From NCBI GenBank assembly GCA_009697815.1, contig WLRQ01000024.1, positions 1 through 36,870 on the forward strand: 36,870 nt of DNA, read 5' to 3'. How positions within the stretch are numbered: the stretch's first letter is position 1; every line of letters starts with the position of its first letter. The DNA is from Actinomycetota bacterium (GTDB lineage Bacteria; Actinomycetota; Actinomycetes; S36-B12; CAIYMF01). Positions 3,123 through 20,131 of the stretch are shown here, piece by piece. The notes under the pieces were generated by a model. The model saw only the letters and a list, made by a program, of their open reading frames with translations, searched no databases and was not told the DNA's origin. A program made the position numbers and the translations under genes.

Positions 3123-3375
3123 TCGGGTTCTACCGCTCCTGGGTGGTGGCGATCCGGGCGCGGGCCGGGGTCGTCGGGCTGTGTGCAGCACGTGCGGGCT
3201 GCAGGTAGGACCCGCGTCCACGCGAGGCGAGGGCCCGCGTGCACGAGGTCATGAGCCCACTCTGCCACCGCGATGAGGCGCTGTGAGGGATGGGCGTCGG
3301 GGCTTGCCCGTGTCGGGTGCGGGGCCACGGAGGTGCTGATCCGGAGCAGATACCCCGTGAGCGGTGGAGGCGCGC

Positions 3376-3387
3376 TACGTTGAGCAT
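3376..3387 (+). promoter_or_regulatory. Putative -10 element for a leaderless transcript
   Basis: TACGTT at 3376-3381 is followed by 6 nt and then GTG at 3388. This spacing would place the transcription start on the start codon. No convincing -35 or Shine-Dalgarno sequence is seen for that GTG. Confidence 0.4.
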
Positions 3388-6120
3388 GTGAGCGACGCGA
3401 CGGCTCCTCCCGCGTCGGCACCCGCGCACTGGGAGGCCGACGTCGTCCTGCGTGACGGCAGGACTGTCAGGATCCGTCCGATCACGGCGAACGACGGCGA
3501 GGCGCTCGCGAGTTTCCACAGGTCACTATCGGACCAGACCGTCTATTTCCGGTTCTTCGCCCCCTACCCCGAACTCTCCCAGCGTGACGTCGACCGGTTC
3601 TCCCAGGTCGATCACGTGGATCGGGTCGCACTCGTCGCGACTGTGGGCGGCGAACTTGTGGGGGTGGCGCGCTATGACCGACTCGACGAGACCGACGCCG
3701 AGGTGGCCTTCGTCGTGCGCGATGACCATCAGGGTCGGGGTTTGGGATCGGTACTCCTCGAACATCTCGCGGCTGCGGCGCGCGAGCGCGACGTCCGGAG
3801 ATTCGTTGCCGAAGTGCTCCCATCGAATAGGCGCATGCTCGCCACATTCGAAGAGGCTGGCTATCATCCCTCGCACCGGATCGAGGACGGTGTCGTGGTG
3901 CTCTCTTTCGATATCGCGCCCTCGCATTCCTCGGAGAGGGTGCGCGTGGCGCGCGAGCACCGTGCCGAGGCGCGCAGCGTCGCGGCACTCGTGGCACCGA
4001 AGTCGGTCGTGATCGTCGGCGCGGGTCGCGACACGGCGTCGCTCGGTCACCAGATGTTGCGCCACCTCATGGACTCTGGGTTCACCGGGCGGATCTACGT
4101 GGTCAACCGTGTGGCTGCGGCACAGGGGGCGACCGTGCTGGGGGTGCCGACCTACGCACGTGTGCGTGACATCGCAGAGAGCGTGGATCTCGCGGTTGTC
4201 GCGGTGCCGGTCGAGGAGGTCTCGGGGGTAGTCGACGACTGCGCAGCCATTGGTGTCGCCGGGCTCCTCGTGGTGTCGAGCGGGTTCGCCGAGTCCGGGC
4301 CAGAAGGGCTGGCGCGGCAACGGGCTCTGGTGCGACGGGCGCGGGGCAACGGCATGCGCGTCATTGGGCCCAATGCGCTCGGCATCGTCAACACCGATCC
4401 GCTCGTTCAGCTGAACGCATCCCTCGCGCCGTCGATGCCGCGCCGGGCGCCGATTGGCTTCTTCTGCCAGAGCGGCGCTCTTGGCGGCACGATTCTGGCC
4501 CGTGCACATCGCCGGGGGCTGGGTGTCTCGACGTTCGTCTCTGCGGGAAACCGGGCCGACATCTCAGGCAATGACCTCCTGCAGTTTTGGGAGGACGACA
4601 CCAGCACCGACGTGGTGCTGCTCTACCTCGAGAGCCTGGGCAATCCTCGGAAGTTCACTCGGATCGCCCGTCGCCTCTCACGCAGCAAGCCCGTCGTGGC
4701 GATGAGGACTGGGCGCTCGACGCAGTCTTACCCCCTGGGGCACAGCGTTAGGCGAACGACGTTGCCGGTGGCTGCCGTCGACTCGATCTTCGCCCAGGCA
4801 GGCGTGATCGAGACCGACTCGCTGGGTCAGCTATTCGATGTGGCGGGGCTCCTGGCCTTTCAGCCTCTGCCACAAGGGAGTCGGGTGGCGGTGGTCGGAA
4901 ACTCCGATGCCCTCGCGGTGCTGACAACCGATGCGTGTGAGTCGTCGGGATTGAGCGTCGTGGGCGCGCCGGTCACGCTCAGGCAAGATTGTGACGTCGA
5001 CACGTTCGCCCGGTCGATCAGGGAGGTGCTCGGTGATGATCACGTCGACTCCCTCGTGATCACGCATGTACCCATGCTGGGAGTGCCCGGGCAGCCATGG
5101 GAACGCGCGATCTCGGCCGCCGCGACGGGCGCGACCAAGCCGGTGGTGGCCGTCCTCGTCGCAGCACGCGACGAGAGTGGCCTGATCGCACCACAGCCCG
5201 GATCGGTCGATCCGGCCCCGGGGTCGGTTCCGTTCTACGGAACGGTCGAAGAGGCAGTCATGGCTCTGAGCCGGGTCACCCGGTATGCGCAATGGCGCGC
5301 GCGCCCATTGGGGGAGATTCCCGATTTCGCTGACCTGCGGCGTGAGGAGGCCGCCGCGGTTGTCCTTGAGGTGCTCGGGTCCTCGGACGTGGGTCACGCG
5401 GAAAGGGATGCCCAGGGAGAGGACGGGGTCGAGCTCCGGGCCCAGGACCCGGCTGACCAACTCAGCCGGATACTCGCGGCCTATGGAATCGAGGTCTGGC
5501 CGGGTAGCCCCGTCGCGAGTGAGGACGAGGCTGTCGCTGCCTCCGAGACGGTGGGCTACCCGGTGGTGCTCAAGACTCTCGACATCCGCTTCGCCTCCCG
5601 CACCGATCTGGGTGGGCTCAGGCTCAACCTCGACAATCAATCAGCGGTGCGCAACGCGTATGCCTCGATGGCCGCATCGCTAGACCCGGACGCAGCCGCC
5701 AACCTCGTGGTGCAGGGAATGGCCCCGCCGGGTGTCGCCTGTGTGGTCGGCTCGGTCGAGGACGCCTTGTTCGGCCCGGTGGTTTCATTCGGGCTCTCGG
5801 GTGTGGTGCCCGAGCTTCTCGGCGATCGCGGCTATCGCATCCCACCGCTGACCGACGCAGACGCCCGTGACCTTGTGGCTGCACCTGGTGCCTCGCCGGT
5901 CCTGGACGGTGTGGGTGGGTCTACCACGGCGGATCGCGATGCTCTGGAGAACTTAGTGCTGCGCGTTGGGCTGCTCGCTGACGACCTGCCCGAGGTCGGT
6001 GACCTCGTACTCGAACCGGTGGTCGTCTCGGCTTCCGGTCTCGTTGTTCTGGGTGCCCGCGCGGTGCTGCGACACCCCGCCGCGCGGACTGACTCACGTG
6101 CGCGGCGGCTCGGTACCTGA
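3388..6120 (+). CDS. GNAT acetyltransferase / acyl-CoA synthetase (NDP-forming)-like fusion, Pat type
   Basis: About 910 residues. An N-terminal GNAT domain (about 15-170) shows the acetyl-CoA loop DHQGRGLGSVLLEHL and the motif FEEAGY. It is followed by a CoA-binding Rossmann domain (VVIVGAGRDTASLGHQML, about 200-300), a succinyl-CoA-ligase-like region with CQSGALGG, and a C-terminal ATP-grasp domain (LAAYGIEVWPGSP to the end). This is the architecture of protein lysine acetyltransferases of the Pat/PatZ group, but with GNAT first, as in actinobacteria. The NDP-forming ligase part is often catalytically inactive in this group and may act as a sensor. The His within PLGHSVRR sits near where ADP-forming synthetases carry the phospho-His, but the usual following residues differ. 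Likely substrates are protein lysines such as those of acetyl-CoA synthetase (inference). GTG 3388 was preferred over GTG 3364 because of the -10-like hexamer just upstream. Confidence 0.85.
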   Translation: MSDATAPPASAPAHWEADVVLRDGRTVRIRPITANDGEALASFHRSLSDQTVYFRFFAPYPELSQRDVDRFSQVDHVDRVALVATVGGELVGVARYDRLDETDAEVAFVVRDDHQGRGLGSVLLEHLAAAARERDVRRFVAEVLPSNRRMLATFEEAGYHPSHRIEDGVVVLSFDIAPSHSSERVRVAREHRAEARSVAALVAPKSVVIVGAGRDTASLGHQMLRHLMDSGFTGRIYVVNRVAAAQGATVLGVPTYARVRDIAESVDLAVVAVPVEEVSGVVDDCAAIGVAGLLVVSSGFAESGPEGLARQRALVRRARGNGMRVIGPNALGIVNTDPLVQLNASLAPSMPRRAPIGFFCQSGALGGTILARAHRRGLGVSTFVSAGNRADISGNDLLQFWEDDTSTDVVLLYLESLGNPRKFTRIARRLSRSKPVVAMRTGRSTQSYPLGHSVRRTTLPVAAVDSIFAQAGVIETDSLGQLFDVAGLLAFQPLPQGSRVAVVGNSDALAVLTTDACESSGLSVVGAPVTLRQDCDVDTFARSIREVLGDDHVDSLVITHVPMLGVPGQPWERAISAAATGATKPVVAVLVAARDESGLIAPQPGSVDPAPGSVPFYGTVEEAVMALSRVTRYAQWRARPLGEIPDFADLRREEAAAVVLEVLGSSDVGHAERDAQGEDGVELRAQDPADQLSRILAAYGIEVWPGSPVASEDEAVAASETVGYPVVLKTLDIRFASRTDLGGLRLNLDNQSAVRNAYASMAASLDPDAAANLVVQGMAPPGVACVVGSVEDALFGPVVSFGLSGVVPELLGDRGYRIPPLTDADARDLVAAPGASPVLDGVGGSTTADRDALENLVLRVGLLADDLPEVGDLVLEPVVVSASGLVVLGARAVLRHPAARTDSRARRLGT

Positions 6121-9190: not shown

Positions 9191-9202
9191 CTCATGACGG
9201 TA
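9191..9202 (-). promoter_or_regulatory. Putative -10 element for the MFS gene (leaderless)
   Basis: On the minus strand TACCGT (9202 to 9197) is followed by 6 nt and then GTG at 9190. There is no Shine-Dalgarno sequence. Confidence 0.4.
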
Positions 9203-9247
9203 CCGACCCCAGGTGCGTCCGGCCGAATCCCTTGGGAGTATTCACCC

Positions 9248-10330
9248 GTGACCGTGACCGGCCCTCGAGGGTCTTTTGACGCATTACTTCTCGTCTCGTT
9301 CGGTGGGCCGGAGGGTCCCGATGACGTCGTGCCGTTCCTGGAGAACGTCACGCGGGGCCGTGGAATCCCTCGTGAGCGACTGGTGGAGGTGGGAGCCCAC
9401 TACTCGGCGTTCGGCGGGATCTCGCCGATCAACAGCCAGAATCGGGCGCTGCTGGACGCCCTTCGCACTGACATCGGAGGGGCCGGCCTCGACCTTCCGG
9501 TCTACTGGGGCAACCGCAACTGGGGGCCGTATCTCACTGATGCGCTGCGCGAGATGCGCGCCGATGGCATCTCGAATGCGATCTGTTTTGTCACAAGTGC
9601 CTATTCGTCGTACTCAGGCTGCCGTCAATACCGCGAGAACCTCGCTGACGCGGTGGCCGAGGTGGAGGCCGACGGTCAGGGTCCGGCGCCTCGGCTCGAG
9701 AAGTTGCGCCACTACTTCGATCACCCCGGGTTCGTCGAGCCGATGGTCGACGCTGTACTCGACGCGGTGGCCAAGGTGGGCGTTTCCTCTCCCCGACTCG
9801 TGTTCACGACACATTCGATCCCGACCACGAGCGCGGAGTCGAGCGGCCCGGAGGGAGGTGCGTACGTGGCACAACACCAGGCCGCAGCGGGGCTCATTGC
9901 CGCTGCCGTCGCAGCGAGCACTGCGGTGGAGGCCGAATGGGACCTCGTCTACCAGTCACGCTCAGGACCGCCCTCGATGCCCTGGCTTGAGCCCGATATC
10001 AGCGACCACCTCGACGAACTGCGACGCGTCGGAGTGCCGGGGGTGGTGATCGTGCCCATCGGTTTTGTTAGCGACCACATGGAAGTCGTCTGGGATCTCG
10101 ACACGGTTGCGCTCGACCACGCTCGCGAGATCGGACTCCCTGCGACGCGGGCGGCCACCGTCGGAACTGACTCTCGGTTCGTGGCGATGGTGCGCGAACT
10201 CGTGCTGGAACGACTCGGGGCGAGGCCCTCTCGGGCTCTGTCTGCACTAGGTCCTTCACATGAGGTATGCCCAGTGGGCTGTTGCGCCAACCCTCGGGGC
10301 GCAAAGACCGCACTGTGTGGCCTCGACTGA
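9248..10330 (+). CDS. hemH: Ferrochelatase (coproporphyrin ferrochelatase in actinobacteria)
   Basis: About 360 residues. It inserts ferrous iron into the porphyrin; in actinobacteria the substrate is coproporphyrin III in the coproporphyrin-dependent haem pathway. It begins with the family core [18 protein letters not shown]. The catalytic His is in VFTTHSIP, and the conserved Glu is in the [11 protein letters not shown] segment near the C-terminus. A Cys in [12 protein letters not shown] and a Cys-rich tail (CPVGCCANP, then ALCGLD) suggest a [2Fe-2S] cluster, as reported for the Mycobacterium enzyme. GTG 9248 is preferred because GGGAG lies 9 nt upstream. An in-frame ATG at 9194 would start only 3 bp from the divergent MFS start and add 18 unconserved residues. 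The inositol monophosphatase gene follows by about 85 bp. Confidence 0.92.
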
Positions 10331-10403
10331 TCCCCGACCGCTCCCCGCGTGATTGGGTCTGCCCGCCGAGGCCCCATCGGGCGCATCGGGGGTCATCGTG
10401 CGA

Positions 10404-10415
10404 CAGGATCGTGGG
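10404..10415 (+). promoter_or_regulatory. Putative -10 element for the phosphatase gene
   Basis: CAGGAT at 10404-10409 is followed by 6 nt and then GTG at 10416. This suggests a leaderless transcript; no Shine-Dalgarno sequence is visible. Confidence 0.35.
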
Positions 10416-11246
10416 GTGACCCTTCATTACGGCGCCCTCCTGCTCGACGAGCTCCACGACGTTGCGGTCGCGGCCGCACGGGAGGCTGCGGCGTTTGCGC
10501 TCGAGGGACGTCGCGATGGCGTGGCTGTGGCCCAGACGAAGTCAAGCGCCACCGACATCGTCACCGAGATGGACCGACGGACAGAGGCCCTCCTCGTCGA
10601 TCGCATCCTCACCGCGCGGCCGGATGACGGCATCTTGGGTGAAGAAGGCGCCGACCACGTTGGCGAGACGGGAATCCGTTGGGTCCTCGATCCGATCGAC
10701 GGAACGGTCAACTACCTCTACGGGCTACCGTCGTGGGCCGTGTCCGTCGCCGCCGAGATCGACGGGGTCGCGGTCGTGGGCGTCGTCGCCGCGCCAGCGC
10801 TGTCCGAGACCTACGTGGCCGTGCTGGGGCGGGGCGCCCACCTGCACGAGCCCGGAGGGGTGCGCAGGTTGGCGGTCAACGATCCGGTCGCTCTCGAGTC
10901 TGCTCTCGTGGCCACCGGCTTCGGCTACCGCGTCGAACGTCGGACGGCCCAGGGGCGTGTGGCCGCAGCGGTCATCCCACGGGTGCGCGATATCCGTCGA
11001 GGGGGGGCCTGCAGTGTCGACTTGTGCTCACTTGCGGCCGGACGTGTCGACGCCTACTACGAGCGCGGGCCGCGGGCCTGGGACCTCGCGGCTGGCGGGC
11101 TCATCGCACGTGAGGCCGGGGCGAGGGTCGAAGGTCTGCGCGGGGCGCCGGCAGGCGAAGATCTGATCATCGCGAGCGGAGTGTCACTGTTCGGCGCGCT
11201 CCATGATCTGCTCGCCTCACTGAACGCCGACACCGATCTGGGATAG
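10416..11246 (+). CDS. Inositol monophosphatase family protein
   Basis: About 276 residues of the Mg-dependent, Li-sensitive phosphatase superfamily, cytoplasmic. Metal-binding motifs are complete: GEEGA (Glu of motif 1), WVLDPIDGTVNYLYGLP (motif A) and WDLAAGGLIAREAGA (motif B). The likely reaction is hydrolysis of inositol-1-phosphate or a related sugar or nucleotide monophosphate; the family does not allow a firm substrate. The frame opens from 10353, but GTG 10416 (VTLHYGALLLDEL) begins the conserved part and has a -10-like hexamer at leaderless spacing. The gene sits after hemH as in Streptomyces. A hairpin region begins 12 nt after its stop. Confidence 0.88.
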   Translation: MTLHYGALLLDELHDVAVAAAREAAAFALEGRRDGVAVAQTKSSATDIVTEMDRRTEALLVDRILTARPDDGILGEEGADHVGETGIRWVLDPIDGTVNYLYGLPSWAVSVAAEIDGVAVVGVVAAPALSETYVAVLGRGAHLHEPGGVRRLAVNDPVALESALVATGFGYRVERRTAQGRVAAAVIPRVRDIRRGGACSVDLCSLAAGRVDAYYERGPRAWDLAAGGLIAREAGARVEGLRGAPAGEDLIIASGVSLFGALHDLLASLNADTDLG

Positions 11247-11382: not shown

Positions 11383-12147
11383 GTGACCACCGTCATCTCA
11401 GTGCACTCGTTCCGTGGTGGCACGGGCAAGAGCAACACCACCGCGAATCTGGCGGGCCAGCTCGCCGCATCGGGCGCCCGGGTGGCAGTGGTCGACACCG
11501 ATATCCAGAGCCCTGGTATCCACGTGCTCTTCGGGTTCGCCGACGATCTCGACAACACGCTGAATGACTACCTCTGGGGCAAGCTCCCGATCAAGGATGC
11601 GGCCCACGATGTCACCAGCAAGATCGCCGCAACATCGACGATCGCCGAGGGCGGTGCTTTGTTCCTGGTGCCGTCCAGCATGAAGGCCGGCGATATCGCG
11701 CGAGTGCTGCGTGAGGGCTACGACGTCGGCACCCTCAACGACGGCTTCCGCGACTTGGCCAAGGATCTCCAGCTCGACTACCTCCTCATCGACACCCACC
11801 CGGGGTTGAATGAAGAGACCCTCCTCTCGATCACCATCAGCGACGTGCTTCTGCTGATCCTGCGTCCGGACCGACAGGACTTCCAGGGCACTGCGGTCAC
11901 GGTCGACGTGGCCCGCAAGCTCGGGGTTCCCGAGTTGTTCCTCGTCGTGAACATGGTTCCCACGAATATCGATGTCGACGACCTCCGCGAGCAGATGACG
12001 GCCGCCTACGGCTCCGAAACCGCGGCGATCCTGCCATTTTCCAAGCAGGTCGTCGACAACGCCTCGGGAGGCCTGTTCTCGCTCGTTCACCCTGATCACG
12101 CCTGGTCCGAGCAGTTCCGTCGCATCGCCCATCACGTCACGCAGTAG
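11383..12147 (+). CDS. MinD/ParA-like P-loop ATPase, copy A
   Basis: 254 residues, a single ATPase domain of the MinD/ParA (SIMIBI) class. The P-loop is HSFRGGTGKSNTTANLA (residues 8-24), with Arg11 where the deviant Walker A normally has its signature Lys; Lys16 of the core motif is kept. Also visible are VDTDIQSPG (switch I) and LLIDTHPGLNEETL (Walker B region). No HTH domain and no obvious membrane-targeting C-terminal amphipathic helix like that of MinD are seen. GTG 11383 has GAGGAG 6 nt upstream; the frame extends upstream to 11269 without similarity. A paralogue follows 83 bp later. No parB or minC/minE is nearby, so plasmid or chromosome partition is unlikely. It probably dimerises on ATP and recruits or positions the neighbouring membrane proteins (inference). 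Confidence 0.87.
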   Translation: MTTVISVHSFRGGTGKSNTTANLAGQLAASGARVAVVDTDIQSPGIHVLFGFADDLDNTLNDYLWGKLPIKDAAHDVTSKIAATSTIAEGGALFLVPSSMKAGDIARVLREGYDVGTLNDGFRDLAKDLQLDYLLIDTHPGLNEETLLSITISDVLLLILRPDRQDFQGTAVTVDVARKLGVPELFLVVNMVPTNIDVDDLREQMTAAYGSETAAILPFSKQVVDNASGGLFSLVHPDHAWSEQFRRIAHHVTQ

Positions 12148-12230
12148 TCGCACCCCGCACGCTCGTCGCGAACAGGACCACACGCGTCGGGCACCACGCC
12201 ACCACTGATCGATTCGTCGAGGAGCTCCAC

Positions 12231-12995
12231 ATGACCACCGTCATCTCCATCCACTCCTTCCGTGGTGGCACGGGCAAGAGCAACACCACCTCGAACGTCG
12301 CGGGACATCTTGCCGCCTCGGGGGCCCGCGTGGCGGTCATCGACACCGATATCCAGAGCCCCGGTATCCACGTGCTCTTTGGGTTCGCGGATGACCTCGA
12401 CAACACCCTCAACGACTTCCTCTGGGGCAAAATCCCGATCAAGGATGCTGCCCACGACGTCACCTCGCTGATCGCCCAGAGCACTCCGGTCGCTGAGGGT
12501 GGCGCTTTGTACTTGGTGCCCTCGAGCATGAAGGCAGGCGATATCGCACGCGTGCTGCGCGAGGGCTACGACGTCGGCACGCTCAACGACGGCTTCCGTG
12601 ACTTGGCCAGGGATCTTCAGCTCGACTACCTGTTGATCGACACCCACCCCGGTCTCAACGAGGAGACCCTTCTCTCGATCACCATCAGCGACATCTTGCT
12701 GCTGATCCTTCGTCCGGATCGTCAGGACTTCCAGGGCACGGCGGTCACTGTCGACGTGGCCCGCAAGCTCGGGGTTCCCGAACTATTCTTGGTGGTCAAC
12801 AAGGTTCCGGTCACCACCGATGTGCCCGACCTTGAGTCCCAGATGCAGGCTGCCTACTCGGCGGAAACTGCGGGCGTGCTGCCACTGTCGGAAGAGGTCG
12901 TGCAGAACGCCTCGGCCGGGCTGTTCTCCCTCACCAGCCCCGACCATGAATGGTCCAAGCAGATCCGGCGGATCGCTGCACGAGTCACCCAGTAG
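12231..12995 (+). CDS. MinD/ParA-like P-loop ATPase, copy B
   Basis: 254 residues, colinear without gaps with copy A. By hand comparison about 214 of 254 residues match (84%). The P-loop HSFRGGTGKSN, including Arg11 and Lys16, the segment VDTDIQ/IDTDIQ and LLIDTHPG are kept. The divergence lies mainly in the last 64 residues, for example VNKVPVTTDVPDL against VNMVPTNIDVDDL. ATG 12231 has GAGGAG 6 nt upstream, the same arrangement as copy A, so the duplication may have included the ribosome-binding site. The stop codon is 2 nt before the start of the Tlc-like membrane protein gene, indicating co-transcription. The pair may form heterodimers or recognise different partners (inference). Confidence 0.87.
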   Translation: MTTVISIHSFRGGTGKSNTTSNVAGHLAASGARVAVIDTDIQSPGIHVLFGFADDLDNTLNDFLWGKIPIKDAAHDVTSLIAQSTPVAEGGALYLVPSSMKAGDIARVLREGYDVGTLNDGFRDLARDLQLDYLLIDTHPGLNEETLLSITISDILLLILRPDRQDFQGTAVTVDVARKLGVPELFLVVNKVPVTTDVPDLESQMQAAYSAETAGVLPLSEEVVQNASAGLFSLTSPDHEWSKQIRRIAARVTQ

Positions 12996-12997
12996 TC

Positions 12998-14653
12998 ATG
13001 GCGGACGACACGAACGGCGACGACTCCTGGGACTTCCTCACGCCCCGCAAGGCGAAGTCCCCGTCCCCGGATTCGGCTGCCACCGAGGTGCAAGCGTCTG
13101 ACGCTCCCTCGACCGAGCCGGTTTCTCGTGACGCGACAACGCCTGCAGATACCTTGCCCGCATCTGCCGCACCCAAACCCGCGACCCCGTCAGTTGAACC
13201 TGATGCCTGGGACTTCCTCGCGACCCGCAAGGCCAAGGTCGCTGCGGGCGAAACTGAGCCGGTGTCGGCTCGGGCGGCTGTGGCTGACTCGCCGGGTGAG
13301 GGTCTGGGGGGATCCTCCGCCCACAAGCGGGCCCGCGGTGAACTGCGTGCTGATATGGGGGGCCCGTCCTTGCGGCGCCGCGCCGTGCCCATGGCTATCG
13401 CCCTCGCGGCCGTTGCGTTTGCTGGGTTCCTGACCGAGATCGTTGCCTCGAGCCAGCTCATCGCCATCGCAGGTCCTCAGTCGTTGATTGTGGTCTACCC
13501 CTTGGGAGGACTTGGGCTCCTGGCCGCTGCATTCCTGCAGTTCAGGTTCATCGACCAGACGGCGCGCCTGCCGCTCCTGCGCATCGTGACCTTCGGCTAT
13601 GCCGCCGTGTTCGCCGTCGCCCTCGCCTGCATCGCGGGCTCGATCGTGCCGATTGCGGCGACAGCGCTCTGCTTGATCCTCGGCGACCAGCTCAACTTCC
13701 TGCTCCCGCTGCTCCTGTGGAGTCTGGTGGGCGATGAGTTCAACGTTGCTGAGGGGCGCAAGATCTTCGGCTGGATCGTGTCGATGACCTATATCGGTCA
13801 GGTGGCGGGACTCGGAGCGTCCGCCATCGCTCCCGCGTTGTTCACCACCCTGCATCTACCTTTGCCGCTCCTACTTGCTGCTAACCCCATCGTCTGCGTG
13901 GTCGTCGGGCTGGTGCTGCCTCGCGTTCTCCGCGGCACGGCGGCTGCGACTGGGCTCGTGCGATCGGAGAACCTGAAGGAATCCTTCGCTGGGGCGATTG
14001 AGTTCATCAACGGTGTCCGCGTGTGGCGCGCTTTGCTGGCGTGTTCGGTGCTGACCTTCGCAGCGGGCATGACGGCCTACATCTCCTATGTGGGAGGTCT
14101 AGGCCGAATTATGGATCAGGACGCGGCTGGGCTTCAGACTCTCCTCGGAAGCGTGGCCGTGGTGACCTTCCTTATTTGTTGGGCGGTCCAGGCATTCGTC
14201 GCAGAGCGGCTACAGGACCGCATCGGGATCCCTGGCGTTCTTCTTCTTCTTCCGATCTTCGCGGTAGCCGCAGGAATCCTGCTGATGCTGGGTACGGCGT
14301 GGGGTTCCGTGGCCCTGCTTGTCGCCGGAGTCTCGTTCTGGAATATCCCTCGCTGGAGCATCGATCAGAATGCGCGGAGGGCTGCGCTAGCGCTCGTGCC
14401 CGATGAGCGCAGAGCGCGCGTCTCGTTCATCGTCGATCTAGGCCCCAACGCGCTCGGCCTCATCCTGTCGGGGTTCTTTGCACTACTCGGGCTGTGGTTC
14501 GGCTGGTATGCCCTCATTCCGGCTTTGGCCGTGCTGATGGCTGCGGTCGCCATCCCCCTCGGGATCGCGGTACGGCGTGGGTGGGAGCAGAGTCTCCTGA
14601 ACTGGCGCCTCCGTCGGCGCAAGCAGAACCGCACGCTCGATTTCGGCGATTAG
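12998..14653 (+). CDS. ATP/ADP carrier-like (Tlc/MFS-type) membrane protein with repeat-bearing cytosolic N-terminus
   Basis: 551 residues. Residues 1-125 are soluble, acidic, Ala/Pro/Thr-rich and probably disordered. They hold two copies of a motif, DSWDFLTPRKAK (W11) and DAWDFLATRKAK (W71), exactly 60 residues apart. About 11-12 membrane helices follow from residue 128 to about 524, then a very basic tail (RLRRRKQNR). The segments WSLVGDEFNVAEGRKIFGWI (241-260) and the IDQNARRAALALVPDERRAR segment (455-474) resemble the nucleotide-transporter-like (Tlc/AAA) branch of the MFS, and plain MFS is the alternative. Transport activity and substrate are not known. ATG 12998 is 2 nt after the upstream stop. 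The tight linkage to two MinD-like ATPases suggests a physical partnership, with the WDFL motifs as candidate docking sites (inference). Confidence 0.75.
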   Translation: MADDTNGDDSWDFLTPRKAKSPSPDSAATEVQASDAPSTEPVSRDATTPADTLPASAAPKPATPSVEPDAWDFLATRKAKVAAGETEPVSARAAVADSPGEGLGGSSAHKRARGELRADMGGPSLRRRAVPMAIALAAVAFAGFLTEIVASSQLIAIAGPQSLIVVYPLGGLGLLAAAFLQFRFIDQTARLPLLRIVTFGYAAVFAVALACIAGSIVPIAATALCLILGDQLNFLLPLLLWSLVGDEFNVAEGRKIFGWIVSMTYIGQVAGLGASAIAPALFTTLHLPLPLLLAANPIVCVVVGLVLPRVLRGTAAATGLVRSENLKESFAGAIEFINGVRVWRALLACSVLTFAAGMTAYISYVGGLGRIMDQDAAGLQTLLGSVAVVTFLICWAVQAFVAERLQDRIGIPGVLLLLPIFAVAAGILLMLGTAWGSVALLVAGVSFWNIPRWSIDQNARRAALALVPDERRARVSFIVDLGPNALGLILSGFFALLGLWFGWYALIPALAVLMAAVAIPLGIAVRRGWEQSLLNWRLRRRKQNRTLDFGD

Positions 14654-14672
14654 AACCCACGCGCGACGAGCG

Positions 14673-14694
14673 GCCTACCGCAAGAGTGGCAGGC
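14673..14694. terminator. Weak hairpin between convergent genes
   Basis: GCCTACC (14673-14679) and GGCAGGC (14688-14694) pair with one mismatch around an 8-nt loop. It lies in the 66-bp gap between the convergent Tlc-like and GNAT-like genes and could act in both directions. Confidence 0.3.
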
Positions 14695-14719
14695 GGCAGT
14701 GTCGCTCAAGGCGTGACTG

Positions 14720-15427
14720 CTAATCCGGGAGCCCTCGCGCTAATTCAAGTGTGCGTGTCACGGTGGGGTTGTCGGGCTCGAGGAGATAGTGATCAAGCAG
14801 GTAGGCGCTTACCGCTGCCGTCGCTACGTCTCGCAGGGGAACGGCCGACCCATATTCCGTCAACCGCACCATCGGGGCGGGGGTCAGGTAGGTGAGTTCC
14901 TCGTAGTCGGCCCAGTGCTTTCCATGTTCAGGCTCGTGATAGTCGACGTCGAGCAAGCGATAGCCAATCCGTCTCCATCCAGCCATGTGTTGAGCATCGT
15001 TCTCGCCCATGCTCCCCAGCAGCCGGACTCCAGCGACTGCCGCCTCACGTTCGCTGACCGCAAGAGCGGCGTCGAAGAGGCTGTGCATCCAGTTGAAGGG
15101 AAGGCCCGAGCGCATGGCCTTGTCCATCGCCACAAAGTGTTGGAGCATCATCGCTCGCCGCAGGTTGGTGTGAAAGATCAGAAAACCGCAGGCATTCTCG
15201 ACCTCGTTTTCCAGGAGCCAGGCGTGAACGATCACCTCGGGATCGTGTGACCCCTCCCGCCAGGCCGCGTCGAGTTCGGGAAGGACATGCGCATGCTGAG
15301 GGAAATGACGCAGCAGCGAGTTCTGCAGGGCCCGCAGAGCCGACATGCTCTGCCCGGGGGAGAAGACCTCCGTGATCCGCAAGCCTGTCGCGATCGTGAA
15401 CTGCTCGCGAATGTCGAGAGACGTCAC
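14720..15427 (-). CDS. GNAT-like acyltransferase-fold protein, unknown function
   Basis: 235 residues, soluble, with no signal peptide. The middle resembles a GNAT fold: a strand ACGFLIFHTNLRRAMMLQHF (79-98) followed by a helix, then HMAGWRRIGYRLLDVDYHEP (147-166), like GNAT motif B with its xGWRxxGY pattern. The acetyl-CoA pyrophosphate loop (Q/RxxGxG/A) is not clearly present, so enzymatic activity is uncertain. GTG 15427 lies 5 nt after the upstream Cache-HAMP stop, with GAGGGG about 8 nt before it, so the two genes are co-transcribed and probably coupled. The name is a fold-level call; I do not recognise a named family. Confidence 0.7.
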   Translation of the reverse strand: MTSLDIREQFTIATGLRITEVFSPGQSMSALRALQNSLLRHFPQHAHVLPELDAAWREGSHDPEVIVHAWLLENEVENACGFLIFHTNLRRAMMLQHFVAMDKAMRSGLPFNWMHSLFDAALAVSEREAAVAGVRLLGSMGENDAQHMAGWRRIGYRLLDVDYHEPEHGKHWADYEELTYLTPAPMVRLTEYGSAVPLRDVATAAVSAYLLDHYLLEPDNPTVTRTLELARGLPD

Positions 15428-15432
15428 GTGTC

Positions 15433-16521
15433 CTACCCCTCGCGCGCTCGCCGTCGCATCTCGGCGGCTTTGGCGGCGAGGTCAGCGAAGCTGTCCGACT
15501 CTGTGATCTGTTTCACGGCGTCAGCGCGGCGAGTCTGGTCGATCTCAACCTTCAGTCGCTGGACCTCAGTGGTCAGGGTCCGCTCACGAGCAGCCACCTT
15601 GGCGGCCATGAGGTGGAAGGACGCTGCCAGTGTGTTCATCTCGTCCGGGAATCTCGGAGCGTTCTCGGTACCGAGATCCAGGTCGTACTCACCCTCAGCG
15701 ACCCGGCCTGCGGCAACGGTGAGGCGTCTCAGCGGTCGCACGAGAGAGGTTGACAGGAAGAGCACGAGCAGGAGCAGCACCACGTAGCTGATACCCAGGA
15801 TCGGGTACACCTGACGCAGGACATCACTGCGAACCTGGTCGACGTAGGTCAGTGGGTAGTCGAGGCCGATAGCCCCCACTGTCTTGCCGTTCGCGTCCAG
15901 GATCGGGCTGTAGGAGGAGATCCACGATCCGTACGGGTCGGAATACGCAGGCTGAGCGGTGGTCTTGGTGAGCCCTTGGCTCATCAACTCGTAGGTGGCG
16001 GGGTCGACCACCTTGTCCAAGGGAACCTTGAAAGTCACGCCAGTCTGAGGGTCGAGCAAGAAGCCGGCCGAGGCCTGGAAGTAAAGCTTCCCATCCTTGT
16101 CGTCGCGCGCGTAGCTGTAAGCCTGCGCCTGGTCATCGATCTGCATCACGCGGAGCAGATCTCTCGACGATGTGCGATACAGCGGGCTCGTGGGATAGCC
16201 GAGCCCGTAAGCGTTTGAGGCGTCAGGAACTGCATCCACGGTTCTGACGAGGGCATCGAACGTGGCTGCGTCCATCGACTTGCTGGCGCCGGCGGACATC
16301 GAGGCGAGGTTCTCGACAAGACGATCCTGCGCAGCCGTCGTGGTGTACTGCACCACCCACACGGCGATGAAGGCGAAGACGACCGTGAAGGCGGCCGCAT
16401 AGGAAGCCAGCAACTTCCAGCGCATCTTGACCGGGAAGCCGAACCTGCGCTTCGTGGGCGCGGCGGACGCGGACGGCGCAGCCGAATCCAGCGCGCTGGG
16501 AGTCTCGACTGAGATGCTCAT
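15433..16521 (-). CDS. Cache-HAMP membrane receptor without enzymatic output domain
   Basis: 362 residues. A cytosolic N-terminus rich in Ser/Ala/Pro (1-35) is followed by TM1 (about 37-58), an extracytoplasmic Cache-like sensor domain (60-238, with YGSWISSYSPILDANGKTVG near 197-216, a typical Cache strand pair), TM2 (239-260), a HAMP domain (258-313, with VRPLRRLTVAAGRVAEGEYD) and a short coiled coil. The protein ends with RLKVEIDQTRRADAVKQITE, then SDSFADLAAKAAEMRRRARE. No kinase, cyclase, GGDEF or methyl-accepting domain follows. From memory, tails of this kind (LKxEID, then EITxTDxFxxL, KAxxxR) occur in cyanobacterial receptor proteins. The signal is presumably passed to a partner protein through the coil and tail. 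ATG 16521 has GGAAG 3 nt upstream. A 164-bp gap separates it from the ABC-like gene, and a TAGGCT hexamer within that gap may be a promoter. Confidence 0.82.
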   Translation of the reverse strand: MSISVETPSALDSAAPSASAAPTKRRFGFPVKMRWKLLASYAAAFTVVFAFIAVWVVQYTTTAAQDRLVENLASMSAGASKSMDAATFDALVRTVDAVPDASNAYGLGYPTSPLYRTSSRDLLRVMQIDDQAQAYSYARDDKDGKLYFQASAGFLLDPQTGVTFKVPLDKVVDPATYELMSQGLTKTTAQPAYSDPYGSWISSYSPILDANGKTVGAIGLDYPLTYVDQVRSDVLRQVYPILGISYVVLLLLVLFLSTSLVRPLRRLTVAAGRVAEGEYDLDLGTENAPRFPDEMNTLAASFHLMAAKVAARERTLTTEVQRLKVEIDQTRRADAVKQITESDSFADLAAKAAEMRRRAREG

Positions 16522-16685
16522 GGGCTTCCGATCGTCTGGGTCATCTGGGTTGTGTGGTGATGGCGGAGATCGGGAGCGCCGTTGAGTCGTGCTCGCATGG
16601 CTAGATCTGCGGCACAGCCTAAGGTACGGGCGCCTCCGTGCACAGAGTTGGGCGTTATCGGCGCGTATGCACTTCGGGTTCCCGG

Positions 16686-18986
16686 CTAAAGATCCCCGAG
16701 ACGGTCCAGCAGCGCGCGGGCTCCCGCCTTGACCGAGCGCTTCTGCACCACCGAGAGCCGGCCGTCGGTCTCGCGCAGCGCACCGTCGCGATGCAGCATC
16801 GCGATAGATGAGGCCACGAGGGCGGCCGGGACATCGGAGAGGCGCTCCTCAACCTCGGCGGCCGTCGAGGGTCCAGCCTTGAGGATCGAGGAGACGATAC
16901 GTCGTTCAGTTGGGGTTCGGTCGAGAAGTCCCATCATTCCGGCCGAGATCGCCTCACGGCTGAGTGAACGGACGACCGAATTGTCGATAGCGACCGCACT
17001 CTCCGACCGCTTCTCGCCCACCGCGAGTCGCGGGTCCCCGCAATGGTTCCCTGGGCCGAGTACCGCAACGCGATGGGCGTTTCCGTCGGCATCGGTGGTG
17101 CTGATCTCGATCTGTCCCGAAATCGTGAAGATGATGCGGTCGGCGGGGGTGCCTTGGCGGTAGATGAAGTCGCCGGGGGCGTATCTCTCGGTGACCAAGC
17201 GGGTCTGAAGATTCGCTTGGTCGGACTCGGAGATACCCAGAACCGTGAGGTCGACACCGCTGATGTTGAGCCGCTGCTCCCAAAGTCGGGCGTAGTCCGG
17301 AAGGGTGGAGAGCAGTTCCTGATGTGTGCCCAGGTGTGTTCCGCTATTGCTGACGAACAAGATGGTGTCGGCGAACTCGGCAACCTCAGGGTCGTTCACG
17401 TTGACCAGGGTGTAGGCACAATTTTGGGCGCGCATCCTGGTGATCAACGGCAGCGCCGTCTCGGGATCGGCGAGAGTGCGCAACGAGCCGACCATGAGAA
17501 CGCGGGGGTTGGCCGCGAGCGCGACGGACAGAAGGAGTCGTTGCCGCTCACACACCGAGAGACGCGCGCCCATGGGGCCTAGTGGTTCATCTAGCCCACC
17601 GGGCAGTTCCGCGAGGTGCCCGAGACTAACGGATTCGAGGATCTGCCGTCCCGTTGTCTCGCTGAGGTCAGGATTGGCGGAGCGAAGGTGGTCGAGCACG
17701 GACGCGTTAAAGACGACTGATTCGCTGGGAACGAAATAGATTGATGAGCTGTTCTCGTGAATGCGTGCGTCGACGCCATCGATCAGCACGGAACCGGACT
17801 CAGGATTGTCGTCACCAGCGAGCAGGCTGAGGAGACTGTCAGGGTCGGTTCCGGTGGGTGTGACAACCCCGATGATCACATGCCTCGGGAGATCGACGGA
17901 CGCAGAAGTAAGGCGCAGCGTAGGCCCGACCGAGGCCGACAGCTCGACGAGGGAGAATCCCGCGGATCGGTCAGCCTCAGGGTGATCTAGGGGCAGTTGG
18001 ATCCTGTTCTTCCCTTTGAGGATATGGTCGATTCGGATTTGACTTACCACTCCGAGTTGGACTGACCGGATCCAGGGCGGGAGGGTTTCGAGGCCTCGTA
18101 CGACGCCCTCCACATAGAGAATCGCGGCGGCGACAGTGTGGGCTGATTCACCGCCAGCGGTGATCGCGAAGAGCACGACGAAGGCCAACCCGGCAAGGCC
18201 GGCCGCGTGGGCAGCAGTGATCAACTGGATCACCCGAATGCCCTGCCTGTGCGTGACATGCTCAAGGGCAGTCACCTGGAACTTGAATCTGGTGAACTGC
18301 CATGGGCCCATGTTCAGGCCCGAGTTGATTCTGTAGCCAGAGATGGACTCGTCGGCGCGCTCACCCACTCGGTTGTAGCGAGACAGCCGTTCACGATCGA
18401 GGACGAGCAACTGTCGACCGACGTAACTTCGGAGGACCAAGAAGAGCAGACATGCGATGACCATGGTGACACCTGCGTGCCACTCGATCACGATCAGCAG
18501 AGTCAGGCTGATCACCACCCTGAGAACTCCAGGGATGCCCTCGCTGAGGGTCTTCTCGTAGCCCTCGGCCACGTTGTCGACGTCCGACGTGTGTCGGGAG
18601 ACGATCGAGGTGCGCGCCATACCGGACTGCCGGACCACGTCGCTGACGAGCAATTTCCTGAACAATGCATCGCGCAGCGCGGTTGCACCGAGGATCGAAC
18701 TCATGTGCGCGGATCGATGGGAATCAAAGCCCGCGACAACTTGCAGCACCACAAGTCCAACGAGCGTGATGACCAGGCTGGTCTCCCACGCGGCATGCTC
18801 GAGCAACCCATCCACGATTAGCGGGATCACCGCTTGGCAGCCCAATGCCACCACTCCGGCGACGATCGTGCGGGCAAGGAGTGCGCGATGGACTTTCACA
18901 TACGGGAAGAACCACGCCAGGAGTAGCCGCATCGCCCCGACTCGCGGCAGGCTCCGGCTTTGACCGGCCGAGGTGTCGATGCTCAC
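16686..18986 (-). CDS. Pseudo-ABC exporter with cyclic-nucleotide-binding-like domain and C-terminal winged helix
   Basis: 766 residues. Residues 20-325 are an ABC type-IV exporter membrane domain with about six helices. Residues 340-575 align along their length with an exporter ATPase domain, but every catalytic motif is gone. The P-loop reads VTPTGTDPDSLLSLLAG, with Pro at the Walker A Lys. The Q-loop Gln is Ser (YFVPSES), the signature LSGGQ is LSVCE (476-480), the Walker B Asp-Glu is Gly-Ser (VLMVGSLRTLADPE), and the H-loop His is Asn (VNVNDPEV). Residues 590-685 match a cyclic-nucleotide-binding domain (YAPGDFIYRQGTPADRIIF), but its phosphate cassette is unusual (GNHCGDPRLAVGEKRSESAV). 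Residues 690-750 look like a winged helix. GTG 18986 has GGGGAG 9 nt upstream. It probably works as a membrane receptor or scaffold rather than a pump (inference). The frame is intact, so it is not a decaying pseudogene. Confidence 0.85.
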   Translation of the reverse strand: MSIDTSAGQSRSLPRVGAMRLLLAWFFPYVKVHRALLARTIVAGVVALGCQAVIPLIVDGLLEHAAWETSLVITLVGLVVLQVVAGFDSHRSAHMSSILGATALRDALFRKLLVSDVVRQSGMARTSIVSRHTSDVDNVAEGYEKTLSEGIPGVLRVVISLTLLIVIEWHAGVTMVIACLLFLVLRSYVGRQLLVLDRERLSRYNRVGERADESISGYRINSGLNMGPWQFTRFKFQVTALEHVTHRQGIRVIQLITAAHAAGLAGLAFVVLFAITAGGESAHTVAAAILYVEGVVRGLETLPPWIRSVQLGVVSQIRIDHILKGKNRIQLPLDHPEADRSAGFSLVELSASVGPTLRLTSASVDLPRHVIIGVVTPTGTDPDSLLSLLAGDDNPESGSVLIDGVDARIHENSSSIYFVPSESVVFNASVLDHLRSANPDLSETTGRQILESVSLGHLAELPGGLDEPLGPMGARLSVCERQRLLLSVALAANPRVLMVGSLRTLADPETALPLITRMRAQNCAYTLVNVNDPEVAEFADTILFVSNSGTHLGTHQELLSTLPDYARLWEQRLNISGVDLTVLGISESDQANLQTRLVTERYAPGDFIYRQGTPADRIIFTISGQIEISTTDADGNAHRVAVLGPGNHCGDPRLAVGEKRSESAVAIDNSVVRSLSREAISAGMMGLLDRTPTERRIVSSILKAGPSTAAEVEERLSDVPAALVASSIAMLHRDGALRETDGRLSVVQKRSVKAGARALLDRLGDL

Positions 18987-19035: not shown

Positions 19036-19557
19036 TCAGGTGTCGATTCGACGCATCTCGGACCGGTACCAATGACCATTGCGCACATACTTCAGGGCTG
19101 CTTCAGTGAAGGCGCCTTCGGCCACAGCGTCCTCGCGGATCCGGCAGGGCACCCCCAGGGCCATGGCGCGAGACGGAATCTCGGTGTCGTTCGGCACGAA
19201 CGCCGATGCCCCGACGAGCGCGCCGCGACGGACTATCACGCGGTGGAGCACCACAGAGCCCGAGCCAATCAGGCAGGCGTCCTCCACGGTGCAGCCCTCC
19301 AGATGGGCGTTGTGGCCCACCACGCAGTCGTCGCCGACGGTTGTGGGCGTTGATGCGGTGCAATGGATGACCGTGCCGTCTTGGATCGAAGTCCTCGCCC
19401 CGATCACGATCGTGCCGTGATCGCCACGGAGCACTGCGGTTGGCCAGATGGTGGACTCGGCGCCGATCGTGACGCTCCCGATGATCACAGCGTCTGGATG
19501 GACGAAAGCTGTCGGGTCGATAGAGGGCACCAGATCGCCGAGGGCGTAGATGGGCAC
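19036..19557 (-). CDS. Gamma-carbonic anhydrase-like hexapeptide-repeat protein
   Basis: 173 residues of left-handed beta-helix repeats from the start (IDPTAFVHPDAVIIGSVTIG) to about 135, then a C-terminal helix. The family's metal-binding His residues are present: one in DGTVIHCT and two in VGHNAHLEGC. This is the gamma-carbonic anhydrase/PaaY-YrdA type, a Zn-dependent trimer; many bacterial members have weak or unproven carbonic anhydrase activity. GTG 19557 has GAGGAG 5 nt upstream. It lies 49 bp before the pseudo-ABC gene on the same strand and might be co-transcribed with it, but it may equally be a separate housekeeping gene. Confidence 0.88.
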   Translation of the reverse strand: MPIYALGDLVPSIDPTAFVHPDAVIIGSVTIGAESTIWPTAVLRGDHGTIVIGARTSIQDGTVIHCTASTPTTVGDDCVVGHNAHLEGCTVEDACLIGSGSVVLHRVIVRRGALVGASAFVPNDTEIPSRAMALGVPCRIREDAVAEGAFTEAALKYVRNGHWYRSEMRRIDT

Positions 19558-19834: not shown

Positions 19835-20131
19835 ATGGCAACAGATTACGACGCACCACGCAAGACCGACGACGAGCTCGCCGAGGACTCCCTCGAAGAG
19901 CTCAAGGCCCAACGGGCGAACAAGGCTGGCTCCAGCGTCGACGTCGACGAGGTCGAAGCCGCCGAAAACCTCGAACTGCCCGGAGCCGATCTCTCGGACG
20001 AGTCCTTGACCGTGAGAGTTCTGCCCCGACAGGCCGACGAGTTCACCTGTTCTCGCTGCTTCTTGGTGCACCACCGCAGCCAGCTCGCGAAGACAGTCAA
20101 GGGTGAGCCCGTCTGCCGCGACTGCGACTGA
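19835..20131 (+). CDS. DUF4193 family protein (small zinc-ribbon-like)
   Basis: 98 residues beginning MATDYDAPRKTDDELAEDSL. The N-terminal two thirds are acidic and probably extended. The C-terminal part has two Cys pairs, FTCSRCFLVHHRSQL and EPVCRDCD, spaced as a small zinc ribbon. This is the DUF4193 family of actinobacteria, of unknown function, commonly found just upstream of dut and DUF3093. There is a GAGGAC ribosome site about 8 nt before ATG. The next gene starts 8 nt after its stop. Confidence 0.9.
   Translation: MATDYDAPRKTDDELAEDSLEELKAQRANKAGSSVDVDEVEAAENLELPGADLSDESLTVRVLPRQADEFTCSRCFLVHHRSQLAKTVKGEPVCRDCD

Follow-up and report, generated by a model that had tools for sequence, protein, structure and literature searches.

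The DNA stretch analyzed here (the window) is a 36,870-nucleotide contig (WLRQ01000024.1, contig C30 of its genome) from the 2.66-Mb, 112-contig, 93% complete genome of an uncultured actinobacterium, and the system in question is a block of six genes at positions 11383 to 18986. All six genes named in a preliminary description of this DNA were present, with a plus-strand trio and a minus-strand trio converging near 14,650-14,720. The plus-strand trio encodes two MinD-family ATPases, MinDa (11383-12147; Walker A RGGTGKS, GTG start preceded by GAGGAG) and MinDb (12231-12995), a tandem duplicate of MinDa with 82% DNA and 84% protein identity, followed by a carrier-like membrane protein of the major facilitator superfamily (MFS) with an NTT/Tlc fold and a disordered N-terminal tail (12998-14653). 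The minus-strand trio encodes a GNAT-fold protein with a degenerate acetyl-CoA loop (14720-15427), a HAMP receptor without a recognized catalytic output domain (15433-16521), and a pseudo-ABC exporter fused to a cyclic-nucleotide-binding-type domain (CNBD) and a winged helix (16686-18986), in which the Walker A and B motifs are lost and the signature is degenerate. In the Pfam and NCBIfam scans, ParA/MinD families were matched by MinDa and MinDb, MFS weakly by the carrier, HAMP by the receptor, and ABC membrane, ABC ATPase, and CNBD families by the pseudo-ABC protein; the GNAT-like protein had no match in either database. The major finding was the co-inheritance, in two phyla, of the MinD ATPase and the conserved C-terminal tail of the receptor, whose genes are often neighbors; the inputs are interchangeable.

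The receptor and its tail

The receptor comprises an extracytoplasmic sensor domain that is Cache-like on weak evidence (15838-16350, minus strand), a HAMP domain (15598-15759, minus strand), and a conserved C-terminal transmitter tail (15436-15606, minus strand). HAMP was the only Pfam domain over the cut-off, with one further sub-threshold match, and no kinase, phosphatase, or methyl-accepting chemotaxis protein (MCP) signaling domain was found in the Pfam and NCBIfam scans, which agrees with the earlier designation as an input-only receptor. The name Cache-HAMP receptor was accurate for the HAMP part. For the Cache part the matches were weak, with a best Cache E value of 0.2 in the window, a chemoreceptor match in the PDB also at E 0.2, and sCache_3_3 matches in 7 of 16 aligned sensor domains at a best E of 0.027. 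The best NCBIfam match was SiaA, over the HAMP domain and tail, at 43 bits against a cut-off of 700. This match and the sensor-HAMP layout recall HAMP histidine kinases and SiaA/RsbU-type receptors; the window receptor differs in having no kinase or phosphatase domain, and SpoIIE or STAS were found as separate genes near MinD in Deinococcus and some cyanobacteria.

The tail spans about 60 residues and reads L.VEID..(K/R)R, then EITE.D.F..L..KA..MR. It was similar in MinD-near receptors irrespective of the sensor domain, following dCache_1, dCache_2, sCache, CHASE2 without HAMP, CHASE2-kinase, CHASE3, CHASE4, Tll0287-like, PAS, GAF, and FHA-GAF domains as well as the CNBD (in proteins of 234 and 255 residues), and is thus common to receptors with many unrelated sensor domains. 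Pfam scans of 34 tailed proteins gave HAMP in 24, and no MCP domain was among the 25 viewed of the 31 families matched. The CHASE2 receptors at loci L218 and L220 carried four and three tail-like segments, respectively, with apparently low-complexity linkers between them, and the tail profile matched no solved chain at E ≤ 1. The alignments were hand-picked (two of 24 tails each, 20 MinDs, 34 tailed proteins, and 16 sensor domains), and the collection of tails by pattern lost some receptors.

Joint inheritance of MinD and the tail

The distribution of the two components was determined in the taxonomic order of the window's genome and in cyanobacteria. Of the order's 166 genomes, 41 had MinD and 41 matched the HAMP-tail model, with 39 shared (Fisher 4e-33), and among 194 cyanobacterial genomes MinD was found in 29 and a tail-only model in 28, all 28 of which were shared (Fisher 6e-33); both values ignore shared descent and are hence inflated. 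The MinD-tail pattern therefore repeats in two phyla with a patchy distribution and, as far as MinD and tailed receptors are concerned, bears out the earlier remark that similar components occur in cyanobacteria. In the window's genus the pattern was all or none, with MinD and tail both present in the window genome, G308, G309, and G310 and both missing from G301 to G307. The other block genes were less widespread in the order: the carrier was found in 28 genomes (27 of them MinD-positive), the GNAT-like protein in 24 (all MinD-positive), and the pseudo-ABC protein in 33 (32 MinD-positive).

The components were also found close together. At least one other block gene type lay within 10 kb of 42 of the 45 MinD places in the order, which bears out the neighborhood clustering that had been proposed as a check, and the tail itself lay within 10 kb of 34 of the 45 places in the order and within 5 kb of 23 of 37 in cyanobacteria. 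A scan of genome contigs with MinD provided a further view, the best 80 of 171 relatives being kept as loci. Of these 80 loci, 31 had a carrier, 24 the GNAT-like protein, 42 a member of the HAMP-receptor cluster, and 39 an ABC-type protein, ordinary ABC exporters being counted among the 39; all four counts are based on simple open reading frame (ORF) calling rather than gene prediction. Since gene order and orientation differed among the loci, the linkage is more than unbroken synteny. The parts of the block thus recur together, rearranged, in Actinobacteriota, although the composition that had been described is not fixed, the carrier, GNAT-like, and pseudo-ABC proteins being accessory. The broader idea of a membrane-organized sensing system is well supported by components that co-occur and co-localize far beyond the window's genome. 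HAMP alone was considered as the cause of the co-occurrence and was judged unlikely, because the 20 tail-negative genomes listed gave 13 to 36 first-look candidates each and no match, and because the tail-only model repeated the pattern in cyanobacteria. Ten of the 80 loci (L021, L034, L042, L043, L045, L049, L055, L060, L076, and L077) also contained a family of about 400 residues (F6); the member in L077 matches periplasmic-binding-protein families and is a possible ligand-delivery partner.

The MinD-like label of both ATPases was confirmed by the ParA/MinD family matches, with a Pfam ParA E value of 1.6e-17 for the window MinD and matches to MinD in the PDB as well. The MinD/ParA fold family and its nucleotide-binding motifs (P-loop GK[ST], A′, and switch II) were present, and the ATP-site residues, the signature position apart, were invariant in 20 of 20 aligned MinDs. 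The deviant Walker A signature lysine is that of KGGxGK[ST]. In this family it is replaced by arginine, as RGGTGKS was found in 78 of 84 cluster members, two others having HGTGKS and four lying outside the search pattern. The NCBIfam cut-offs for cell-division MinD (minD_bact / minD_arch) were not reached (43 bits versus 212.9; 75 and 80 bits versus 201.75). The nearest relatives were from uncultured Actinobacteriota, several labeled Candidatus Nanopelagicales.

The MinD pair that had been described is present in the window, but it is not a constant feature. A near-identical tandem pair was found only in the window's genome among the 41 MinD-positive genomes of the order, where fragmented assemblies could hide others, and the pair was rejected as a defining feature for the order. 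G297 and G298 each had two MinD copies on separate contigs. Elsewhere, five cyanobacterial loci among the 80 (L062, L066, L069, L078, and L079) had a diverged second MinD-like gene adjoining MinD, as did a Deinococcus plasmid (L177), where the Walker A of the second gene reads MRGTGKS; pairing may matter in these lineages. G466 and G496, also outside the order, each had two close MinD places. In the window's genome a third MinD copy was located at L117:9525-13051 (G000:C91), near a second tailed HAMP receptor, with an alpha/beta-hydrolase-like ORF, identified by eye, between the two.

Taken with the constancy of the tail, these distributions make it fairly probable, in our judgment, that the block is the local form of a modular signaling system in which the MinD-family ATPase and the tailed receptors form the constant core and MinD acts as the transducer. 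The linkage of MinD and tail is what the counts establish; docking of the tail on MinD and the output are inferred. For the wider proposal, that extracytoplasmic (Cache/CHASE) and cytosolic (PAS/GAF/FHA/CNBD) receptor classes converge through one tail on an Arg-signature MinD transducer with interchangeable read-out modules and so make up an unrecognized signaling class, the chances appear about even.

The tail's attachment to so many domains also bears on an alternative in which MinD serves for positioning only: it would distribute or cluster the carrier and tailed receptors at the membrane, in the way that ParA-like proteins handle chemoreceptor arrays, while the signal exits by another, unseen route. 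MinD/ParA proteins are mainly positioning ATPases, stimulating partner segments are familiar from PpfA-TlpT, ParC-ParP, and MinD-MinE, and the tail, a short basic segment, has repeats in low-complexity sequence after it in some members, all of which would fit. However, the receptors are without another recognized output, a kinase domain being present in one of the 34 tailed proteins (again with 25 of 31 families viewed), and the tail is also carried by short CNBD proteins and an FHA-GAF protein with no Pfam membrane domain, for which placement at the membrane is less sensible. Positioning alone was consequently considered rather unlikely.

The tail motif, the carrier, and the pseudoenzymes

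A short motif was found in both the receptor tail and the unrelated carrier, the favored reading being that MinD is the common partner of both. In the window, the carrier N-tail contains two copies, DSWDFLTPRK (13022-13051, plus strand) and DAWDFLATRK (13202-13231, plus strand), and the receptor tail contains one, DSFADLAAKA (15466-15495, minus strand), all three being proposed docking motifs; the other four proteins have none. The carrier N-tail is hypervariable save for D.W.FL..(R/K). The W and F of the second copy were invariant in the 20 aligned carriers (the window's and 19 of the 31, hand-picked), and W.F was present in 30 of 31 MinD-near carriers, the exception being partly masked. The pattern [DE]x[FYW]xxLxx[KR][AGKS] was composed after the receptor and carrier had been viewed and without a blind test, so that the following enrichments over shuffled sequences are descriptive: 42 of 50 members of the receptor cluster versus 1.9 expected, 16 of 31 carriers versus 0.45, and 4 of 4 CHASE2 receptors, with 8 copies, versus 0.10. 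Eleven further gene families, from 1061 ORFs, had one or two matches each.

The Tlc-like label of the carrier was upheld at the level of fold but not of sequence. In the predicted model (pLDDT 80.5) the N-tail scored mostly under 50, and a helix of low confidence (residues 72-84) spans the second motif; the top two Foldseek matches in the PDB were 9j3m and 9j3l (Arabidopsis ATP/ADP translocator NTT1), Chlamydia NTT1 being ninth; the TM-score by target against 9j3m was 0.70. None of 20 carriers matched Pfam TLC, whereas 15 of 20 matched MFS_1, among 12 families found. The window carrier shares the NTT-type MFS fold of the Tlc/NTT translocators, and it differs from them by the disordered motif-bearing N-tail, a C-terminus of the LLNWRLRRRKQ type, and the lack of a Pfam TLC match. 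As this fold is closest to ATP/ADP translocators and the CNBD could sense a nucleotide, the block might instead be a transport system, with nucleotides or a related substrate passing through the carrier under the control of the other components. This was deemed very improbable, since 14 of the 41 MinD-positive genomes of the order, some of them incomplete, were without a detected carrier, and since the pseudo-ABC protein is dead. An apparent MinD-carrier fusion in one relative was rejected as an artifact of a masked stretch. In Anaerolineae, a 1193-residue HEAT-CNBD protein (L082:11617-15195) lies beside MinD and a winged-helix gene; its N-terminal half looked carrier-like by eye, and homology to the carrier was only weak (hhalign probability 27).

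The remaining two block proteins both look like pseudoenzymes. That the ABC exporter is catalytically dead, as previously supposed, was confirmed by an alignment of the window protein with 22 relatives of score > 300 and length > 700, in which the Walker A Lys and Walker B Asp were lost in 23 of 23; the catalytic Glu was also lost in 23 of 23, with Asp in its place in one (L047). Compared with type IV ABC exporters (MsbA/CydC family), the transmembrane and ATPase domains are still recognizable, while the catalytic residues are lost and a conserved CNBD and winged helix are fused. For the GNAT-like protein, the model (pLDDT 95.7) and the GCN5 family matches of its structure search verified the predicted GNAT fold. 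The acetyl-CoA pyrophosphate loop (motif A, in a loose pattern) was found in one of 24 relatives (L042), and by eye it was missing from the window protein, which is thus a probable pseudo-acetyltransferase; the alignment comprised the window protein and 19 of the 24 relatives, hand-picked.

The CNB-like domain of the pseudo-ABC protein (16944-17189, minus strand) was likewise verified, matching PF00027 at E 1.4e-16. The phosphate-binding cassette of CNBDs usually has Glu and Arg; the cassette here, with GD, was conserved among the relatives, with Asp at the Glu position in 23 of 23 and Arg kept in 22 of 23. Class III cyclases were not found in the window's genome (93% complete) or in 30 of the 33 pseudo-ABC genomes, which are incomplete, using a search that covered only class III and gave matches in 5 of 14 control genomes. 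Because these cyclases were mostly not found and the cassette has Asp instead of Glu, the suggestion that a cytosolic cAMP-like nucleotide is sensed through the CNBD is doubtful; other cyclase classes and other nucleotides remain candidates. Within the window's genus, the MinD-negative G301 to G307 had 2 to 5 class III cyclases each, and three of the four MinD-positive members had none.

The winged-helix-like domain at the C-terminus of the pseudo-ABC protein (16689-16928, minus strand), after the CNBD, is related to a small stand-alone protein encoded beside MinD elsewhere (pairwise hhalign probability 93.8, E 2.8e-8). That small protein ends in a conserved W..L segment (in a hand-picked alignment of one further sequence and 12 from its cluster of 14). 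In the long-frame cyanobacterial matches the domain sat close to the N-terminus, and in two of these what appeared by eye to be WD40-like repeats came after it. As winged-helix, CNBD, and SpoIIE/STAS genes are also found near MinD in several genomes, the partner of the tail could be another protein of the system, such as the winged-helix protein or a SpoIIE/STAS component, with MinD merely co-inherited. The winged helix, the sole such candidate counted, tracked the tail poorly, being present in 12 of 194 cyanobacterial genomes at E ≤ 1e-9 versus 28 for the tail, and this explanation was considered unlikely. The winged-helix gene was also rejected as a constant partner, not being constant across the cyanobacterial genomes.

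The mechanism we propose retains MinD as the transducer. A ligand would alter the sensor domain, and HAMP, PAS, or GAF would relay the change to the tail. Partner proteins act on ParA/MinD ATPases through short basic segments that are often disordered, and the short motif of the tail may dock on the ATP-bound MinD dimer, altering ATP hydrolysis, the dimer state, or membrane recruitment. The carrier N-tail, with its one or two matching motifs, could compete with the tail as another dock at the membrane, possibly as a reporter of adenine nucleotide. Both the pseudo-GNAT protein and the pseudo-ABC-CNBD-winged-helix protein may act as non-catalytic scaffolds or ligand sensors, the winged helix being the likely output side in this lineage, through transcription or partner binding; elsewhere the output may pass through SpoIIE, anti-sigma-type ATPase, and STAS genes or through RiPP export clusters.

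Besides the inflation of the Fisher values and the composition of the motif after inspection, several observations weigh against this interpretation. The MinD-tail rule was broken in 4 of the 166 genomes of the order (G327 and G400 with MinD only, G345 and G351 with the tail only) and in 1 of the 194 cyanobacterial genomes (G611, which had the weakest MinD match and in which the tail was not found). Tails were distant or on other contigs in 25 of 66 cases in the order (10 kb) and 27 of 49 in cyanobacteria (5 kb), and one of the tailed proteins (CHASE2-kinase) has a kinase domain. The motif was unmatched in all four carriers examined from cyanobacteria (L168, L169, and L170) and Deinococcus (L177). 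The linkage of winged helix and MinD was looser, with 10 of the 12 cyanobacterial genomes at E ≤ 1e-9 being MinD-positive and, at E ≤ 1e-4, 12 of 24 (of the 194). The output is the least certain step, and the winged helix may serve to bind protein.

Among known systems, the closest likeness is to PpfA-TlpT and ParC-ParP, in which a MinD/ParA-fold ATPase is paired with membrane receptors via a short segment, as would also be the case here. The window receptor differs from theirs in not being an MCP, with no MCP signaling domain or kinase found; furthermore, one tail here serves many sensor types, some of them soluble-looking, and Arg replaces the signature Lys of the ATPase. No system of this kind was described in the titles and abstract openings listed in searches of the open-license literature on MinD/ParA with these sensor or partner domains, and to that extent the earlier statement that no system of such composition had been described holds. 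Many such receptors have sensor domains but no recognized output enzyme, and the tail offers a common candidate partner. If the proposal is right, MinD-type ATPases would be a further class of transducer beside histidine kinases, cyclases, and phosphatases, and the tail-bearing proteins would constitute a searchable list of inputs.

Neighborhoods and further copies

Outside the order, part of the block recurs on a plasmid of Deinococcus sp. KNUC1210 (L177, 3194-15351), which carries MinD and the second MinD-like gene together with a tailed Cache-HAMP receptor and a homologue of the carrier (hhalign probability 99.4). MinD lies there near SpoIIE/HATPase genes, STAS genes, and GlgX, and SpoIIE, anti-sigma-type ATPase, and STAS genes were found near the same MinD family in some cyanobacteria also. 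The outputs appear to be interchangeable, as members of the MinD family adjoin either SpoIIE/STAS genes or RiPP export clusters. A related order of anti-sigma-antagonist, GlgX, and MinD was seen on a Nostoc NIES-3756 plasmid (L180). On Nostoc C057 and Pseudanabaena plasmids (L176 and L179), MinD, a DUF7005-type gene, and a CNBD gene were near Nif11/NHLP RiPP precursor or export genes, and at the actinobacterial locus L034 the neighbors of MinD include an exporter pair with a C39 peptidase as well as an HlyD-type gene.

In the window, the block is flanked by genes for ferrochelatase (9194-10330) and an inositol-phosphatase family protein (10353-11246) on one side and by a hexapeptide/gamma carbonic anhydrase-like gene (19036-19557), below the NCBIfam cut-off, on the other. 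Of the housekeeping setting that had been described as conserved, the hemH and phosphatase genes do flank the block here, but its conservation is not confirmed: neither flank was detected in any of the 80 relatives (0 of 80 for both; tblastn E ≤ 1e-15), many of whose contigs are short. The gene at 19835-20128, which had been assigned to DUF4193, had no NCBIfam match at E ≤ 1e-20, no Pfam scan having been made of that gene.

Further copies of block components were found in the window's genome. A third tailed receptor (G000:C34:6618-6974) and a second pseudo-ABC copy (G000:C110:728-2953, on a contig of only 5.5 kb) each lie on a contig without a detected MinD. Elsewhere in the window, positions 3364-6117 encode a protein that resembles acetate-CoA ligases and has an N-terminal Pat-like acetyltransferase region.

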